Source of the DNA: Chitinophagaceae bacterium
GTDB taxonomy: Bacteria; Bacteroidota; Bacteroidia; Chitinophagales; Chitinophagaceae
Assembly: GCA_014379345.1 (NCBI GenBank)
Contig: JACMLY010000030.1
Location: forward strand, 186,001 to 250,000
Direction of reading: 5' to 3'
DNA: 64,000 bases
Shown: positions 11,167 through 18,270 of the stretch, one piece after another
Numbering within the stretch: position 1 is the stretch's first letter
How the letters are laid out: each line of letters begins with the position of its first letter
Program-made: the position numbers and the translations under genes
The notes under the pieces: generated by a model
Told to the model about the DNA's origin: nothing
Database searches by the model: none
The model's input: the letters and a program-made list of their open reading frames with translations, nothing else

Positions 11167-11500
11167 GCCATAAAATTAAGTTGTTTTACTACTGCTAAAA
11201 ACATAGTAAAATACGATGTGAAGAGTATAAATCCAAACAGGCGCCGGGGCCTTTATCGTTTATCCAAAGTTTTTTAAATTGAAGATTAAACATTCAATTT
11301 TTAAATGAACGGGAAACCATCCTTCTGTAAGTTATTGCCTTTTTTCACCCTGTTATACACCCAATCCAACCGATTACCCATTTCTGTCGTCTTTTCCACT
11401 TATCAGTTGCTATTTTTGATTTGCTGTAGTAGGATACCCACCCTTGAAACAGCTATCCGTCCCTCATTTGTCAAATTTGTTTTTCATAGGAATATACAGT

Positions 11501-11529
11501 CCCTCTTTTTCTAAAGAGGGTTTTTTTTT
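11501..11529 (+). terminator. strong plus-strand terminator with no gene in front of it
   Basis: CCCTCTTT (11501-11508) and AAAGAGGG (11513-11520) form an 8-bp stem around TTCT, followed by nine T residues. It reads on the plus strand, but the genes on either side are minus-strand. A TATTTTTG at 11411-11418 fits the minus-7 box; no TTG is found at the right distance. The rest of the 490-base gap (11167-11659) holds no gene I can support; the 69-aa open frame at 11305 runs into this hairpin. Confidence 0.6.
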
Positions 11530-11530
11530 G

Positions 11531-11676
11531 GTGAGTGGTCAGTGGTGAATGGTCAATGGTGAATGTCTTATCGAAGCATACATGTTCAATTTTCAATGCT
11601 CAAGCGGAAAACAAAATATTCAAGTCAATACATTCTTAACAACTTGAGCCATTTACCACTCACCACTCACCATTCC
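11531..11676. repeat. inverted pair of GTGAGTGG-type tandem repeats
   Basis: Degenerate direct repeats GTGAGTGGTCAGTGGTGAAT at 11531-11565 face their inverted counterpart CCACTCACCACTCACC at 11655-11676. The right arm overlaps the 3' end of the histidine kinase gene and encodes its last residues (NGEW) and stop codon. The same word recurs at 38756-38781. Confidence 0.6.
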
Positions 11677-14600
11677 GATTGACCAATGGCAGGCGCACAA
11701 TTACTTTTGTGCCTGCAGGCGACCGGGATTCATCAAACTTATCAATCACGGAAACGCTTGCTTCCTTACCGGTCTTTTCACTAACCAGTTGTAAACGTTC
11801 TTCGGTAACCTGCAGTCCCACGCTGTTATGAGAGGATATTCTCTTGCTTTTCAACGCTGCTGCCCGTTCTCTGCCTACACCATTGTCTTCAACGGTACAT
11901 TCCAAATGGTTATTCACAGGCTTCAACGATATGATTATGTTGCCTTTTCCCTTTTTATGCGCAATACCGTGCAGTATAGCATTTTCTATATAAGGTTGAA
12001 TGATCATCGGCGGGATGGCAATATCTTCCTTCCGGAGCGATGAATCTGTTTCAATAGAAAAATCAAATCCGTTATTAAACCGCAACTGCTCAAGTTCTAT
12101 ATATAAATACAACTGGTCAAGTTCACTGGCCAGGCTTACCCATTCCTGCCGCGAATTATCCAGGATCAAACGCATGAGACGCGCAAATTTTACCAGGTAT
12201 TTTTCTGCATTATCGCTGTCATTTTGTAAAACAAAAAGACGAATGGCGTTGAGAGAATTGTACAGAAAATGCGGGTTCATCTGTGAACGCAGGGCCTTCA
12301 TTTCGGAGGCCGTTATGCGTTCACGGAATTCTCCTCTGATTTTTTCTTCTTTCACCAGCCTTTGTTCGCGGATTTTCATGATCAATACGATACCGGCTAC
12401 AAAAATCGCTATCGTTGTTGCCCGGAACCACCAGGTTTCCCAGAAAGGCGGCTTGATATCAATGCTCAATACAGCCGGCGGACTCCATTCACCGCCTTTA
12501 TATTTCGCTTTTACTTCAAATGCATATAATCCCCCATCTACACCTGTATAGGTAGCAAAATTTCTGTTACCGCTATTCACCCAATCCTTGTCGTAACCTT
12601 TCAGCCTGTATGAGTACTCGATAGAATTATCAGGTAAAGAACTTAATGAGGAAAAATCGATGGTAAAAAAATTTTCTTTGTATGAGAGCCGGATGGTATC
12701 AATACTTTTATAAAGAGGTTTTGGTTTTTCAAATATGGAAATATTGCTGATCACCGGAACAATCCCCGCCTTTTGCTGATTTGCCAGCAAGGGATCAACT
12801 ACAATAAAAGTATTGTCATTTCCCAATACAAGTTTGCCATTTTTCAAAAGATATTTTCCTTTCGAATAGAAATTGTTTTCCCGCTGCCCATAATCAATTT
12901 TTGAGTGCTCGATTTTTTCAAGATGAGGATCAAAAATGGTAAATCCTTCGTATGATCCAACCCAAATCTTTCCCTGCCCATCGGGTATAATGCGATTGCA
13001 AACATCCATTACGAGCCCATCACTTTCACGCCACGCCTTAAAATGTTCCGTTGCCGGGTCAAACCGGATCAATCCACCCCCTTCGGTAGCCAGCCATATT
13101 TTCCCTTCTGTATCCGCATGCATATCATTTATGGGCCGTTGAAATACCAACGGTTTTTGGTTTGCCGGTGGAACATAGGAGTAGAACAGGTCCTTTTCAC
13201 GGGTATATTTATAGAGCATTCCGGAGTAGGTTCCGAACCATAGATTCCCTTGTCTGTCTTCGGTGAATGCCTTTACAGCGGTGATTTTCGCCTGTTCTAT
13301 AAAAACACTGTCGGGGTTATACCGCCTGTAAGAATTTGCAACCGGATCAAACCTATATAAATACCTGGCACCCGCGCTAAACCAGATATCCCCTTTGCTG
13401 TCGCCATAACACCAGCTGATGCCGGTTTCTGCTATTTTTTCTGATTCGGGTATTCCATCAAAGGACCTGAATTTCCTTAGTTCCGGATTGAATATTGTGA
13501 TGCCCCGGGGTGTACTTAACCATAATTCCGTTTTTATTTTTGTAAGATGGGTTACTTGCTGATCTCCCCTGGCAAGCGGGTAGTGTTCATAATGTCCCGC
13601 ATTAAAATCATAGTTGTATAACCCGAGGCCGCTGAACCATAATTTCCCCGATTCATCTTCGGTGAGGCCGGTAATGTTGCCTGGATCCTGAACGGACCTG
13701 ATGTTGTCCGCGGGTTTGTATATGCTATAAAAAGAAACAGTAGGATCATAGATCGATAATCCATACATTCCTCCAATATAAATGCTGCCATCTTTTGCCT
13801 GAATGACATCCCAGAAAAAATCCGAATTAATGCCCGAAGGATTTGCAGGATCATGCTTTATTCGTTCCCATATTCCTGATATGGCATCCCGGAAATAAAC
13901 CAGGTTATTCCACGAGCACACCCACGTATTATTATTGATATCAAAAAAAATTGCAGCCAGGCTTGCCTCAGTTTGCTTATCATTTTTCTTAACACCTTCA
14001 TCTGTGTAAGAAATGGCTTTTTCTGCGAATGAATAAGAAACGATTTTTAACCGGCCATAATCCCCATACACAAGCCTGTTTTTGCGATCGAATGATATCG
14101 GGAAAATTTCACAGTCGTTGAAAACCGGCAATTTTTCAGGGTTGTTCTTGTAATTATAAAAAATCTTTTTTTGAAGGTCGAAGCAATTCAGGCCTTTATC
14201 GGAGCCCAGCCATAAATAATGGTTAACAGGATCTTCTTTCATTGCATTCCGATGGATCCTGTTTGAACTAATGGATGTGGAATCCGAAGGGTTATTCTTA
14301 TAAGAAATGAATGATCTTTTTTCAGGATCGAATTCGTATAAACCGCCCAGGGAGGTAACCCATATCCGTCCACTGCGATCGCAGACAATATTTGTGACGT
14401 CATTCGCCCGCGAGGCATCCCTCGATTGAGGTTCGAGCAGGTAATTAGTAAATACGTTCCTGCTTTTCAGGTAGTGGCTTACCCCATTTGCAGTACCTAT
14501 CCAAATGTTCCCACTACTGTCTTCGCACAGATCATTGATATTATTGTGAGCAATCGCTGCAGGATTATTGCGATCTGATTTAAAAACGACAAACCTTGAA

Positions 14601-14794
14601 CCGTCATACCGATTTAGCCCATTGAATGTTCCTACCCAGATATATCCTTCCCTGTCCTGGAAAAGACAATTGACAAGGTTATATGATAAGCCGTTTTTAG
14701 TGGTAAGGGTTCTAAAAGAAAAATGGTGAGGCTGTGCAATACACACCTGGAAACATAGCAGGATAGCAAAGGGGTATGAAATTCTTTTGCTCAA
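11660..14794 (-). CDS. two-component sensor: Reg_prop propeller, Y_Y_Y, LytS-type histidine kinase
   Basis: A 1044-residue inner-membrane sensor. After a signal peptide (residues 1-20, ending VCIAQ) come two seven-bladed-type regulator propeller regions (about 25-690), with blades marked by repeated GYIWVGTFNGLNRYD-, GNIWIGTANGVSHY- and GKIWLATEGGGLIRFD-like units, then a Y_Y_Y domain (about 700-775), a membrane helix (about 788-807), and a cytosolic His_kinase domain with phospho-acceptor H842 in QMNPHFLYNSL followed by an ATPase (IIQPYIENAI, VEDNGVGRERA). In Bacteroidota such sensors often detect polysaccharide fragments. There is no fused receiver and no adjacent response regulator; the nearest LytTR regulator is at 16647. 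The last codons lie within a dispersed GTGAGTGG repeat. Confidence 0.92.
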   Translation of the reverse strand: MSKRISYPFAILLCFQVCIAQPHHFSFRTLTTKNGLSYNLVNCLFQDREGYIWVGTFNGLNRYDGSRFVVFKSDRNNPAAIAHNNINDLCEDSSGNIWIGTANGVSHYLKSRNVFTNYLLEPQSRDASRANDVTNIVCDRSGRIWVTSLGGLYEFDPEKRSFISYKNNPSDSTSISSNRIHRNAMKEDPVNHYLWLGSDKGLNCFDLQKKIFYNYKNNPEKLPVFNDCEIFPISFDRKNRLVYGDYGRLKIVSYSFAEKAISYTDEGVKKNDKQTEASLAAIFFDINNNTWVCSWNNLVYFRDAISGIWERIKHDPANPSGINSDFFWDVIQAKDGSIYIGGMYGLSIYDPTVSFYSIYKPADNIRSVQDPGNITGLTEDESGKLWFSGLGLYNYDFNAGHYEHYPLARGDQQVTHLTKIKTELWLSTPRGITIFNPELRKFRSFDGIPESEKIAETGISWCYGDSKGDIWFSAGARYLYRFDPVANSYRRYNPDSVFIEQAKITAVKAFTEDRQGNLWFGTYSGMLYKYTREKDLFYSYVPPANQKPLVFQRPINDMHADTEGKIWLATEGGGLIRFDPATEHFKAWRESDGLVMDVCNRIIPDGQGKIWVGSYEGFTIFDPHLEKIEHSKIDYGQRENNFYSKGKYLLKNGKLVLGNDNTFIVVDPLLANQQKAGIVPVISNISIFEKPKPLYKSIDTIRLSYKENFFTIDFSSLSSLPDNSIEYSYRLKGYDKDWVNSGNRNFATYTGVDGGLYAFEVKAKYKGGEWSPPAVLSIDIKPPFWETWWFRATTIAIFVAGIVLIMKIREQRLVKEEKIRGEFRERITASEMKALRSQMNPHFLYNSLNAIRLFVLQNDSDNAEKYLVKFARLMRLILDNSRQEWVSLASELDQLYLYIELEQLRFNNGFDFSIETDSSLRKEDIAIPPMIIQPYIENAILHGIAHKKGKGNIIISLKPVNNHLECTVEDNGVGRERAAALKSKRISSHNSVGLQVTEERLQLVSEKTGKEASVSVIDKFDESRSPAGTKVIVRLPLVNRNGEW

Positions 14795-14881: not shown

Positions 14882-14911
14882 TTGAAAATGCAACGATTCA
14901 ATATAATTTTG
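14882..14911 (+). promoter_or_regulatory. Bacteroidota-type promoter for the 26-aa lipopeptide gene
   Basis: TTG at 14882-14884, a 19-base spacer and TAATTTTG at 14904-14911 give an exact match to the minus-33/minus-7 pattern (TTG, about 19, TAnnTTTG) of the primary sigma factor of this phylum. The best promoter match I found in the window; a start point near 14917 would leave a leader of about 27 bases. Confidence 0.7.
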
Positions 14912-14943
14912 TGTCATCATTATCAGTTAACCATTAGCCTACT

Positions 14944-15024
14944 ATGAACAAGAAAATTTTCAACATTGAGCCCGTGATCGGCGCCATGATACTGATCATG
15001 GGTTTAACAACGGGATGTTCCTGA
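14944..15024 (+). CDS. 26-aa lipoprotein-signal-like peptide
   Basis: ATG at 14944 opens MNKKIFNIEPVIGAMILIMG and ends LTTGCS. The last residues form a lipobox (LTTGC) directly before the stop, so signal peptidase II processing would leave only a lipidated Cys-Ser and release a hydrophobic peptide ending MGLTTG. It has a consensus promoter 33 bases upstream and a strong terminator 130 bases downstream, so it is very probably transcribed on its own. No homologue family is recognised. Possibilities are a leader-derived signal peptide (as for enterococcal pheromones, an analogy only), a tiny envelope peptide, or a non-coding RNA with a chance frame. It lies between two LytS-type kinase genes. 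Confidence 0.45.
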   Translation: MNKKIFNIEPVIGAMILIMGLTTGCS

Positions 15025-15154
15025 AACGTGAAAAGGGAGAAGCCGGACGTGAAAGCATGCCGTTTCACTTCTTACTTCTCACTCCTCACGATTATAAGGT
15101 TAACCAACATAATTTCTCATATCAGTTAGTTTTGGTCGGTTATTGCATATTTCG

Positions 15155-15185
15155 AAAGCGGATTGAATAAATCCGCTTTTCTTTT
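15155..15185 (+). terminator. intrinsic terminator of the 14.9-15.2 kb transcript
   Basis: AAAGCGGATT (15155-15164) pairs perfectly with AATCCGCTTT (15170-15179) around a 5-base loop, followed by a T-rich tail. It closes the short transcript that starts near 14917. Between stop and hairpin (15026-15083) lies an imperfect GTGAAAAGGGAGAAG/CTTCTCACTCCTCACG inverted repeat, a relic of dispersed repeats. No further gene is seen up to 15396. Confidence 0.75.
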
Positions 15186-15396
15186 GCCAGATAGGGGTGT
15201 GGATGGTTAGTTATAGGTTAAAACCTGCCAAATATCAACTAACCCTAAAGAGATTACACGGACAATGATAACTTTAGACCAGTTTGATGGTTTTCTGCAG
15301 GTTTGCATATGATTATCATTGATTTTGTAGTTGTAGATTCGTTCATATGATGTAAGAACACGTGAAAAGAAAACCCTATCATCTTCCCATCCAATA

Positions 15397-16650
15397 ATGT
15401 CGGATATGTTTTTATGGCGACCAAATAGTGCACAATATAAACGGGTGGCAGTGCTTGCAGAAGAACTGGAGATTGAGCGCGCTATCAATTATTTTGCTAC
15501 ATCCATGGTTAATCAGCATACGGTAGATGAGATTCTCTGGGATGTGACCAAAAACTGTATCGGCCGGCTGAAATTTGTTGACTGCGTTGTTTACCTGCTT
15601 GATGAAGAAAGAAACATTCTTGTTCAAAAAGCCGCATACGGTCCAAAGAATCCACGCAGCTACGAAATATTTCATCCAATCGAAATCCCTATTGGAAAGG
15701 GGATCGTGGGAAGCGTGGCTAAAACCGGTAAAGCTGAAATTATCAGGGATACGACAAAAGACAACAGGTATATAAAAGATGACGACATGCGGTTGTCGGA
15801 AATTACAGTTCCTATCATTTGTGATAATAAAGTCATCGGGATCATCGATGCGGAACACCCGGAAAAAAACTTCTTTAAACCAAGGCACCTCAAAATACTT
15901 ACCAAAATTGCTGCCTTAAGTGCAGGTAAGATCAATAAAGTTCAAATTGAAGAAGCATACCGTCAAACAGAATTTAAGCTGATTGAAAATAACCGAAAAA
16001 TTGCAGAGACCAAACTGCTTGCTTTGCGGTTACAAATGAACCCACATTTTATTTTTAATAGTCTTACCGCGATCAATAATTTCATCCTCAACAATGATGC
16101 TGAGCATGCATCCGGCCTGCTCACCAAATTTTCCCGTTTTGTGCGGCAGGTTTTAGATAATTCCAGAACGGAATGGGTATCGCTGCAGGATGAATTGAAA
16201 GCGCTACAGATTTATATTGAATTGGAGCAGTTGCGTTTTGAAAATAAGTTTGAGTTGAATATAAAAGTAGGCCCGGATGTGGACCGCGAAATGGTTCATG
16301 TTCCACCGCTTATCATCCAACCATATGTTGAAAATGCAATCTGGCATGGACTGTTACACAAAAAAGAAGGAATTGCAATTCTTTCCATCAATTGCTGGAA
16401 GGAAGAAGACAGATTGTACCTCCAAATAGAAGATAACGGCATTGGCCGGCAGGCTTCGGCGAAAATCAATAAGAACAATGCGTTGACTTCACATAGATCA
16501 CACGGCATGAAAGTGACCGAAGAACGATTACAGATTCTTAACCAGGTGTATAATGTGGAGGCGGTTGTAAGCGTCGTTGATTTATTGTTGGGCGATTATC
16601 AGCCTGCAGGCACACAGGTAACATTAAGAATGAAAATAAAAAGATCATGA
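15397..16650 (+). CDS. GAF-domain LytS-type sensor histidine kinase
   Basis: Soluble histidine kinase of 417 aa. A GAF domain (about 28-180; GKGIVGSVAKTGKAEIIRD and VPIICDNKVIGIIDAEHP are typical) is followed by a short coiled linker, a His_kinase domain with phospho-acceptor H217 in LQMNPHFIFNSL, and a GHKL ATPase (IIQPYVENAIWHG, IEDNGIGRQAS). It has no signal peptide or membrane helix, so it probably senses an intracellular ligand or partner. Its stop overlaps the start of the LytTR regulator gene by 4 bases (ATGA), establishing the cognate pair. The ATG at 15397 starts a few residues before the GAF region; the upstream region shows only a weak GATTTTG box. Confidence 0.9.
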   Translation: MSDMFLWRPNSAQYKRVAVLAEELEIERAINYFATSMVNQHTVDEILWDVTKNCIGRLKFVDCVVYLLDEERNILVQKAAYGPKNPRSYEIFHPIEIPIGKGIVGSVAKTGKAEIIRDTTKDNRYIKDDDMRLSEITVPIICDNKVIGIIDAEHPEKNFFKPRHLKILTKIAALSAGKINKVQIEEAYRQTEFKLIENNRKIAETKLLALRLQMNPHFIFNSLTAINNFILNNDAEHASGLLTKFSRFVRQVLDNSRTEWVSLQDELKALQIYIELEQLRFENKFELNIKVGPDVDREMVHVPPLIIQPYVENAIWHGLLHKKEGIAILSINCWKEEDRLYLQIEDNGIGRQASAKINKNNALTSHRSHGMKVTEERLQILNQVYNVEAVVSVVDLLLGDYQPAGTQVTLRMKIKRS

Positions 16651-17674: not shown

Positions 17675-18178
17675 TTAAAAATCCCCCATCATCGATGCCA
17701 GTCTCATAAAACCGGGCCGAGGAATATTTGTACTCTCAGGGGTTGCACTTAATCGCCACCTTTCCTGAACTGGATTATTATGTATGTATTCCAATTTTTG
17801 AATAAACAACTTGTACGTGCACAAGTCTACGCTCAAAGCATTGCGTTCCCAAAGTTGATATTTTCTGTCTTGCGCATTTACTTCAAATTCTTTTAGCCAT
17901 AACGAATTGTATTTAAACAAATCGAATTTTATTTGTTGTGCAGTGAATTTTAAAAAATCTCTTTTAACATCTTTAAGTTTATGCCCTGGTTGAATCTGCC
18001 ATATTAAATGAAGATGATTCGGCATGATTACAAAACAATATATAATTACACGTTTTTCCTTTACTAAAAACCGAAGACTCTCAATAACGATATCTTTATA
18101 TTTATCTTCTTTTAGCAATTGTTTCCATTCTAAATTAGTGGCTGTAAAAAATTGAGGATAGATGTTGGAAAATTTCAT
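17675..18178 (-). CDS. REP-associated tyrosine transposase (Y1/HUH family)
   Basis: Single-strand DNA transposase-like protein of the IS200/TnpA-REP (RAYT) group. The HUH metal-binding motif is seen in CFVIMPNHLHLIWQ, with the two His two residues apart; the catalytic Tyr is expected in the C-terminal helix KLEYIHNNPVQERW, which carries the family hallmark YIHNNPV. I start it at the ATG giving MKFSNIYPQF (167 aa), because a longer frame to 18268 reads through one of the flanking palindromes. Palindromes with GTTGTTGGTG arms lie on both sides, the classic arrangement of RAYTs with the REP sequences they mobilise. Expected role: cutting and moving short palindromic elements. Confidence 0.88.
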   Translation of the reverse strand: MKFSNIYPQFFTATNLEWKQLLKEDKYKDIVIESLRFLVKEKRVIIYCFVIMPNHLHLIWQIQPGHKLKDVKRDFLKFTAQQIKFDLFKYNSLWLKEFEVNAQDRKYQLWERNALSVDLCTYKLFIQKLEYIHNNPVQERWRLSATPESTNIPRPGFMRLASMMGDF

Positions 18179-18250
18179 ATTCGAATTTCTATCGAAATGA
18201 TTTTTTTTCTGAGATGTTTTTCTCTCTGTATGCTGTTTTTTGCCAGCAGT

Positions 18251-18270
18251 GGTTGGTGTTATTACCAATA
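18251..18270. repeat. degenerate RAYT-associated palindrome
   Basis: GGTTGGTGTTATTACCAATA is a shortened, imperfect copy of the GTTGTTGGTG palindrome, 73 bases upstream of the RAYT start I chose. Confidence 0.55.

Follow-up and report, generated by a model that had tools for sequence, protein, structure and literature searches.

The window, a stretch of 64,000 nucleotides of a Chitinophagaceae genome, contains a small putative transcription unit between two genes for LytS-type histidine kinases (Table 1). The promoter, the 26-codon frame and the terminator described by the first-pass annotation all lie where it had placed them, and such a unit fits the sequence. Beyond that annotation there are a 16-bp hairpin within the frame, an intergenic palindrome at 15024-15093, a fold of the entire interval 14918-15190 with a z-score of -5.3 (-3.4 for the frame alone) and a conserved element at 15113-15136.

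Table 1. Coordinates of the features of the window unit, its neighbours and the related copy in the same genome
Feature	Position	Strand	Details
Reg_prop / Y_Y_Y / LytS-type histidine kinase gene, divergent neighbour	11660..14794	-	
Promoter, Bacteroidota primary-sigma type	14882..14911	+	TTG-N19-TAATTTTG, from sequence
26-codon frame MNKKIFNIEPVIGAMILIMGLTTGCS, lipoprotein-signal-like, putative coding	14944..15024	+	ATG 14944, TGA 15022-15024
Perfect 16-bp RNA hairpin within the 26-codon frame	14966..15007	+	arms 14966-14981/14992-15007
Imperfect intergenic palindrome, GTGAGAAGTGAG-type	15024..15093	.	31-nt arms; similar repeats in other family genomes
sRNA 3' module, match to covariance model R1	15102..15185	+	30.4 bits, E 2.8e-4 across the 64-kb window
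Conserved seed TTTCTCATATCAGTTAGTTTTGGT of the putative sRNA family	15113..15136	+	core 15123-15136
Intrinsic terminator	15155..15185	+	perfect 10-bp stem 15155-15164/15170-15179, U-run to 15185
GAF / LytS-type histidine kinase gene, neighbour	15397..16650	+	
Mini-lipoprotein copy MKKIVLIAIVLCYLVGCGVSYM and sRNA module in the own genome	G000:C124:12297-12448 (L177, L288, L384)		between outer-membrane-type genes, read from translations

Primary-sigma promoters of Bacteroidota carry a TTG element at -33. The window promoter fits the TAnnTTTG box of this sigma factor (PMC9723704), and its expected transcription start is at about 14918. The genome to which the window belongs (the own genome) has 44 TTG-N19..21-TANNTTTG sites per 1.72 million strand-bases, which gives 0.005 expected per 200 nt. 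The promoter was absent from the output of a sigma-70 scan, and a sigma-70 identity was rejected, as it is the Bacteroidota box that matches. The terminator hairpin was absent from the output of a simple terminator scan. The palindrome was matched between genes at five loci of other family genomes (L004, L006, L133, L134 and L137), and a Y1_Tnp (IS200-like) gene is present in the window at 17675-18268 on the minus strand. A repeat origin for the whole unit was rejected, the repeat-like part being confined to the palindrome.

The frame gives little indication of being a gene when taken by itself. The lipobox pattern has a small residue at -1, cysteine at +1 and leucine at -3; the LTTGC of the window has G at -1, T rather than L at -3 and L at -4, and passes a loose pattern only. 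Comparable tiny ATG frames with a loose lipobox numbered 15 (12 distinct stop codons) in 861 kb of the own genome and 11 in one shuffle. As this frequency is near the shuffle level, the frame by itself is no evidence of a gene. No DNA match over the frame was found in 58 relatives, with the ten best candidates of each genome scored, or in 393 further genomes of the family, with the two best scored in each, and a search for orthologues of the locus through the kinase gene gave none that was close (best 55% identity). The first-pass annotation had set conservation of the frame in relatives against conservation of the RNA alone; no relative of the frame was found, and the RNA element proved to be conserved.

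A number of the weak DNA matches from other genomes map to 15105-15158, which holds the seed followed by the terminator. The 14-base core of this seed, CAGTTAGTTTTGGT, is present in 205 of 294 family genomes, and it occurs at six sites in the own genome, against none for the core read backwards as a control. A terminator was observed within 26 nt of the core in 92 of 103 distinct occurrences; the mirrored side had one in a single case out of 103, and random positions had one in 47 of 1000. The 103 comprise 80 fetched regions pooled with the core loci listed, and the 11 that lack a terminator were retained. CTCAT lies at most 10 nt upstream of the core in 80 of the 103. An alignment (A1) was made of 57 of the 79 non-window copies with CTCAT. 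The core is invariant in A1 by selection, the copies having been collected by the core, and AG precedes it in every row. The terminator stem covaries: for every one of its eight pairs, one or more of the 57 sequences have both partners changed, with 1-5 sequences broken per pair and the outermost pair being G-U in 15.

The reverse complement of the seed, ACCAAAACTAACTGCTTATGAGAAAA, resembles a Bacteroidota start region, and at two loci (L136 and L142) it lies upstream of open frames. The minus strand at 15117-15136 also reads as a good start region, as at these two loci, so the conserved letters might be the start region of a lost gene (ACCAAAACTAACTGATATGAGAAAT) rather than plus-strand RNA. 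The minus frame of the window, however, ends after six codons, U-run and terminator both belong to the plus strand, and across the family the terminators stand on that same side of the core (92 of 103) with a covarying stem, all of which makes a lost gene very unlikely.

The module, that is, the seed followed by its terminator, is conserved, and it is nearly confined to Chitinophagaceae in scans with the covariance model R1. Of 48 family genomes, 34 had a best R1 match below E = 1e-10; the 31 other genomes of the order that were scanned had none, their best match having an E-value of 0.0015 (36.1 bits). Among 247 genomes of the phylum, seven had a match at E ≤ 0.01 (20 candidates scored per genome), six of them belonging to Chitinophagaceae. 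A plasmid search gave no match. No Rfam family was matched at the gathering score by the window or by 14 loci, and permissive scans gave sub-threshold rows only. No description of this seed, of the peptide or of Chitinophagaceae sRNAs was found in open-licence PMC text (titles and the beginnings of abstracts), where the one string match was in an alfalfa paper. Four loci (L156, L172, L237 and L252) hold a different element, with the same 14-base core and a longer spacer before the hairpin, preceded by TATAAAA..GTATAGG or TATACAAA..GCATAAG.

Promoter-like blocks were observed upstream of the module. TTTAAC[AG] occurs between -105 and -30 in 26 of 80 members (shuffled mean 1.7) and GG-N10-GC in the same interval in 30 of 80 (shuffled mean 3.7), while a first ECF pattern was present in 6 of 80 (shuffled mean 0.5). 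Family-wide sigma-54 promoters were considered because of the GG-N10-GC block and were rejected, as the mini-lipoprotein copies described below fit AAC-N17/18-GTC; the other copies, given how few members have the first ECF pattern, may differ from these in sigma factor.

The window copy took no part in the building of R1, and in a control of 502 kb of kinase loci, some of them from Chitinophagaceae, the best score was 24.5 bits. Rescaled to the whole genome, the E-value of the window match is about 0.02, which lies beyond the limits of about 0.011 and 0.01 of the R1 genome surveys and explains the absence of the window copy from them. For the same reason, the exact core before a terminator is a stronger argument for membership than the R1 score. 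The core is exact, and a terminator hairpin with a U-run follows on the same strand. The window reads TTTCTCATAT before the core where the family has TTTTCTCATAAG, with one base missing and one changed; over CTCATAAG, the difference from the family amounts to one base lost and one changed. The spacer between core and hairpin is 18 nt, compared with 2-6 nt in the family, and the window copy is therefore called a diverged relative and not a typical member. The sequence of its hairpin is unrelated to that of the family, and its promoter is also different. A second, weaker R1 match in the window, with a hairpin and U-run, was observed at 11469-11532 on the plus strand (26.8 bits). Judged on its letters, the 3' part of the unit belongs, as a diverged copy, to a many-copy RNA family of Chitinophagaceae that is apparently undescribed. 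The fallback of the first-pass annotation, that the transcript is a small RNA, is thus the best supported of its proposals.

It is also conceivable, if somewhat unlikely, that the window copy is a decaying remnant in which the seed alone looks intact, the frame arose by chance and the promoter is incidental. The intergenic DNA has no orthologue in the 58 relatives or the 393 family genomes (10 and 2 best candidates scored per genome, respectively), the frame is near chance frequency, the R1 score is low and an intergenic repeat lies between frame and seed. Decay accounts poorly, however, for an exact core and a perfect terminator stem where all else has diverged, and for a good promoter of a kind expected only 0.005 times per 200 nt.

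Pairing of the seed with the start regions of the own genes was assessed, with the first ATG, a crude choice, taken as the start of each gene. Nine of 629 start regions contain the 8-mer AAAACTAA, compared with 1 of 619 upstream regions and 0 of 630 for either of two in-gene windows. With energies of -16 kcal/mol or lower, duplexes of the family seed were predicted for 23 of 629 start regions, 11 of 630 in-gene regions and 9 of 619 upstream regions, and 15 shuffled family seeds reached a mean of 11.1 start regions (maximum 20). The corresponding numbers for the window seed were 15 start regions, 8 in-gene and 11 upstream, with a shuffled mean of 5.7 (maximum 11). At or below -14 kcal/mol, the family seed gave 53 start regions, 38 in-gene and 41 upstream, and one shuffled seed gave 58. 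Mean duplex energies showed no difference between the regions (-9.35 for start, -9.46 for in-gene and -9.29 for upstream). The enrichment in start regions is therefore modest. Among the products of the ten targets with the best pairing, Pfam recognised a TonB receptor, an IRK channel, a DUF5777 beta-barrel, a CHU_C type IX cargo protein, a DUF5362 protein and a 7TMR-DISM kinase; one had no family and one (BetR) was below the cut-off. Start regions of SusC-like genes were considered as a class, for which the regular expression caught only two genes.

The module is also found on 13 phage-like viral contigs (L411-L423), with the exact 24-base seed, a terminator and R1 scores of 66.5-88.5 bits. 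In 10 of these 13 loci, the seed begins 3-9 nt after the end of an open frame of 60 codons or more, an arrangement that suits an element of mRNA 3' ends as well as an sRNA. The module might be a conserved 3'-end element of the mRNAs of small genes and phages, in which a site for an RNA-binding protein precedes the terminator and which serves to end transcripts and make them stable; this would make the window unit a tiny mRNA with such an end. The cellular copies behind small membrane peptide frames are in line with this, one closely following a DUF5670 small membrane protein frame (L369) and others following single-TM peptide frames (L145 and L246). A small hydrophobic frame just upstream of the module was nevertheless missing from 146 of 158 distinct copies. 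Its presence in the other 12 compares with 7.5 copies on average and at most 12 after shuffling (13 of 161 copies before removal of duplicates, shuffled mean 7.0), so that most copies look non-coding. The promoter-like blocks at -105 to -30 also speak against a 3'-end element, which is regarded as unlikely, and so does the seed itself: it contains CAU, the complement of the seed is an ideal start region, and AAAACTAA is present in nine start regions. sRNAs derived from mRNA 3' ends would satisfy both views.

Four of the 12 copies with a hydrophobic frame, from four genera, share the same frame of 22-23 residues; one of the four is the copy at G000:C124, on another contig of the own genome. A profile (A2) was built from these four mini-lipoprotein copies. 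At E < 1e-9 it detected 20 of 394 genomes, four being the query copies and 16 new; one further match at a contig edge had an E-value of 4.8e-6, with a leftover part of the module scoring 36.9 bits. Matches were obtained in 87 genomes in all, the 66 left aside all being weaker than 1e-4. The module lies downstream of the mini-lipoprotein stop codon in all 20 copies, with scores of 67.8-88.6 bits and a distance of 28-123 nt between stop and core. The peptide, for example MKKIILIAIVLMYLVGCGISYM (22 aa), is under purifying selection, with a pooled pS of 0.576 and pN of 0.120 over 190 pairs (ratio 0.21). Many of the genomes compared lie close together, but the same bias was seen for the own copy against the other 19. 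The tail CG[IV]SYM is kept in 19 of the 20 peptides. The promoters of these copies have AAC-N17/18-GTC[TA] and a TATA-rich stretch and are of ECF type; a weight matrix made from them gave 21-35 bits for 15 of the 20 copies it was trained on and lower scores for the remaining five. In Flavobacterium, a CGT -10 box marks ECF promoters (PMC9723704). The mini-lipoprotein family is thus a conserved gene in 20 of 394 genomes and is linked to the module.

The frame of the window stands in a comparable place, its stop codon being 98 nt from the core and so inside the range of the 20 copies. Tiny frames with a loose lipobox number 15 in 1.72 million strand-bases, so that about 0.002 would be expected in 200, and this rarity argues for a link between frame and module, an argument weakened by the fact that the window was picked for the frame. 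In the own genome, A2 at E ≤ 0.05 gave one match, at C124, and none at the window. A search of the window for the ECF-type promoter (AAC-N17/18-GTC[TA] and TATA-rich stretch) ranked the promoter of the unit 55th, with 2.05 bits and an N18 spacer. In kind and in position the window frame would suit a mini-lipoprotein, but its letters do not, and it is best treated as a candidate gene, unproven. A gene made up almost entirely of a lipoprotein signal peptide does exist as a conserved family, at G000:C124 and in 19 other genomes; for the window frame itself, for which no relative was found and which has T at -3, the claim is doubtful.

The neighbouring genes at 12 module loci were a release factor 1 gene, lgt or a DUF520 gene, and outer-membrane-type or other genes; no kinase was read among them, with a Pfam check of six neighbours. 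Certain sites recur. The module follows the release factor 1 gene at L174, L183 and L186 (and, by eye, L180 and L188), with a VanZ-like gene on the other flank (a sub-threshold Pfam match in L174), and it lies between lgt and a DUF520 (yajQ-type) gene at L182 and L187 (by eye, L178).

These neighbourhoods bear on the signalling role that had been suggested for the window peptide. Enterococcal sex pheromones derive from lipoprotein signal peptides, and the window frame is likewise a short lipoprotein-type signal sequence; it adjoins two LytS kinase genes that might sense such a pheromone, and a true mini-lipoprotein family exists in the clade. In contrast to the enterococcal system, there is no full-length lipoprotein here and no known receptor or protease, and in the mini-lipoprotein copies it is the tail CG[IV]SYM that is itself conserved. 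The window frame is unconserved, LTTGC is a poor lipobox, the 12 other loci have no neighbouring kinase, and neither a receptor nor processing of the peptide found support. A pheromone sensed by the adjoining kinases is thus extremely improbable, and the proposed link to them was unsupported.

The module can be compared with other small RNAs. In dual-function sRNAs of the SgrS/SgrT type, the ORF of a small protein lies in the 5' part and the base-pairing region in the 3' part. The mini-lipoprotein copies have the same order, with the differences that the peptide is a lipoprotein signal with a tail of 2-7 residues (cysteine counted) and that the 3' module is common to paralogues without this ORF; in the window, the peptide part is putative. 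FopS and GibS of Bacteroides thetaiotaomicron are, like the module, paralogous, multi-copy Bacteroidota sRNAs (14 copies of FopS), and FopS shares with it a single-stranded seed followed by a terminator hairpin (PMC11697453). According to that study, pairing of the FopS seed takes place close to the start codon of SusC-like outer-membrane mRNAs, with binding near start codons shown experimentally in B. thetaiotaomicron, and the FopS sequence is also reported from a phage; pairing of this kind is likewise predicted for the module seed, and the module too is found on viral contigs. Unlike the module, FopS is about 65-70 nt long, with its seed at the 5' end and sigma-ABfr promoters, and the study left out putative sORFs and reports homologues from Bacteroidaceae (PMC11697453). 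The module differs in that its seed abuts the terminator, in its near confinement to Chitinophagaceae, in the ECF-type promoters and mini-lipoprotein of some copies, and in matching no Rfam family at the gathering score. The comparison with FopS is one of description. Being complementary to start-codon regions, the element resembles the seed of a base-pairing sRNA of the FopS kind, and the module would by analogy bind near start codons, FopS being the experimental precedent. Rfp18 of Flavobacterium psychrophilum is another conserved Bacteroidota sRNA with predicted mRNA targets; it is described as widely conserved in the genus Flavobacterium and as pairing via its third stem-loop (PMC9723704), and here also the comparison is one of description.

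Overall, the window unit is probably a diverged paralogue of a multi-copy small-RNA gene of Chitinophagaceae, whose RNA part is conserved and whose peptide part is uncertain. Transcription from near 14918 to 15185 would yield a structured RNA of about 270 nt, with a largely single-stranded seed, CUCAUA-UCAGUUAGUUUUGGU, at its 3' end ahead of the terminator hairpin. This seed may pair with initiation regions of the form ACCAAAACUAACUG..AUGAGAAA, several of them in mRNAs of envelope proteins, and would thereby block their translation. The window frame appears to occupy the slot held by the mini-lipoprotein in 20 other copies, one of them in the own genome; it may encode a lipidated dipeptide, or may equally be idle. 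Against this explanation stand the low R1 score and the long spacer, the phage copies, the lack of an orthologue and a target enrichment that is only modest.

A further reading, put forward tentatively and judged rather doubtful, is that the window holds a second, fast-evolving version of a dual-function gene, in which one transcript provides both a lipopeptide that is nearly all signal and a base-pairing sRNA directed at the envelope. Apparently, no gene of this type is described in the open-licence PMC literature, to the extent that it was searched. If this reading is true, the conserved copy, with MKKIILIAIVLMYLVGCGISYM, its ECF-type promoter and the module, would be an envelope-stress unit: the lipopeptide would report on, or titrate, lipoprotein processing, and the RNA would shut off the synthesis of outer-membrane proteins. 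The window copy would make a different lipopeptide from a housekeeping-type promoter. This raises the question of why a cell keeps, beside an RNA aimed at start codons, a lipoprotein whose mature part is about six residues long. If the pairing view is true, AAAACTAAC start regions would be the expected target class of the module seed. Little is known of the sRNAs of Bacteroidota outside the gut genera, and these observations point to a base-pairing RNA that is spread through the family in multiple copies, has a fixed seed, is also carried by phages and recurs at certain sites.
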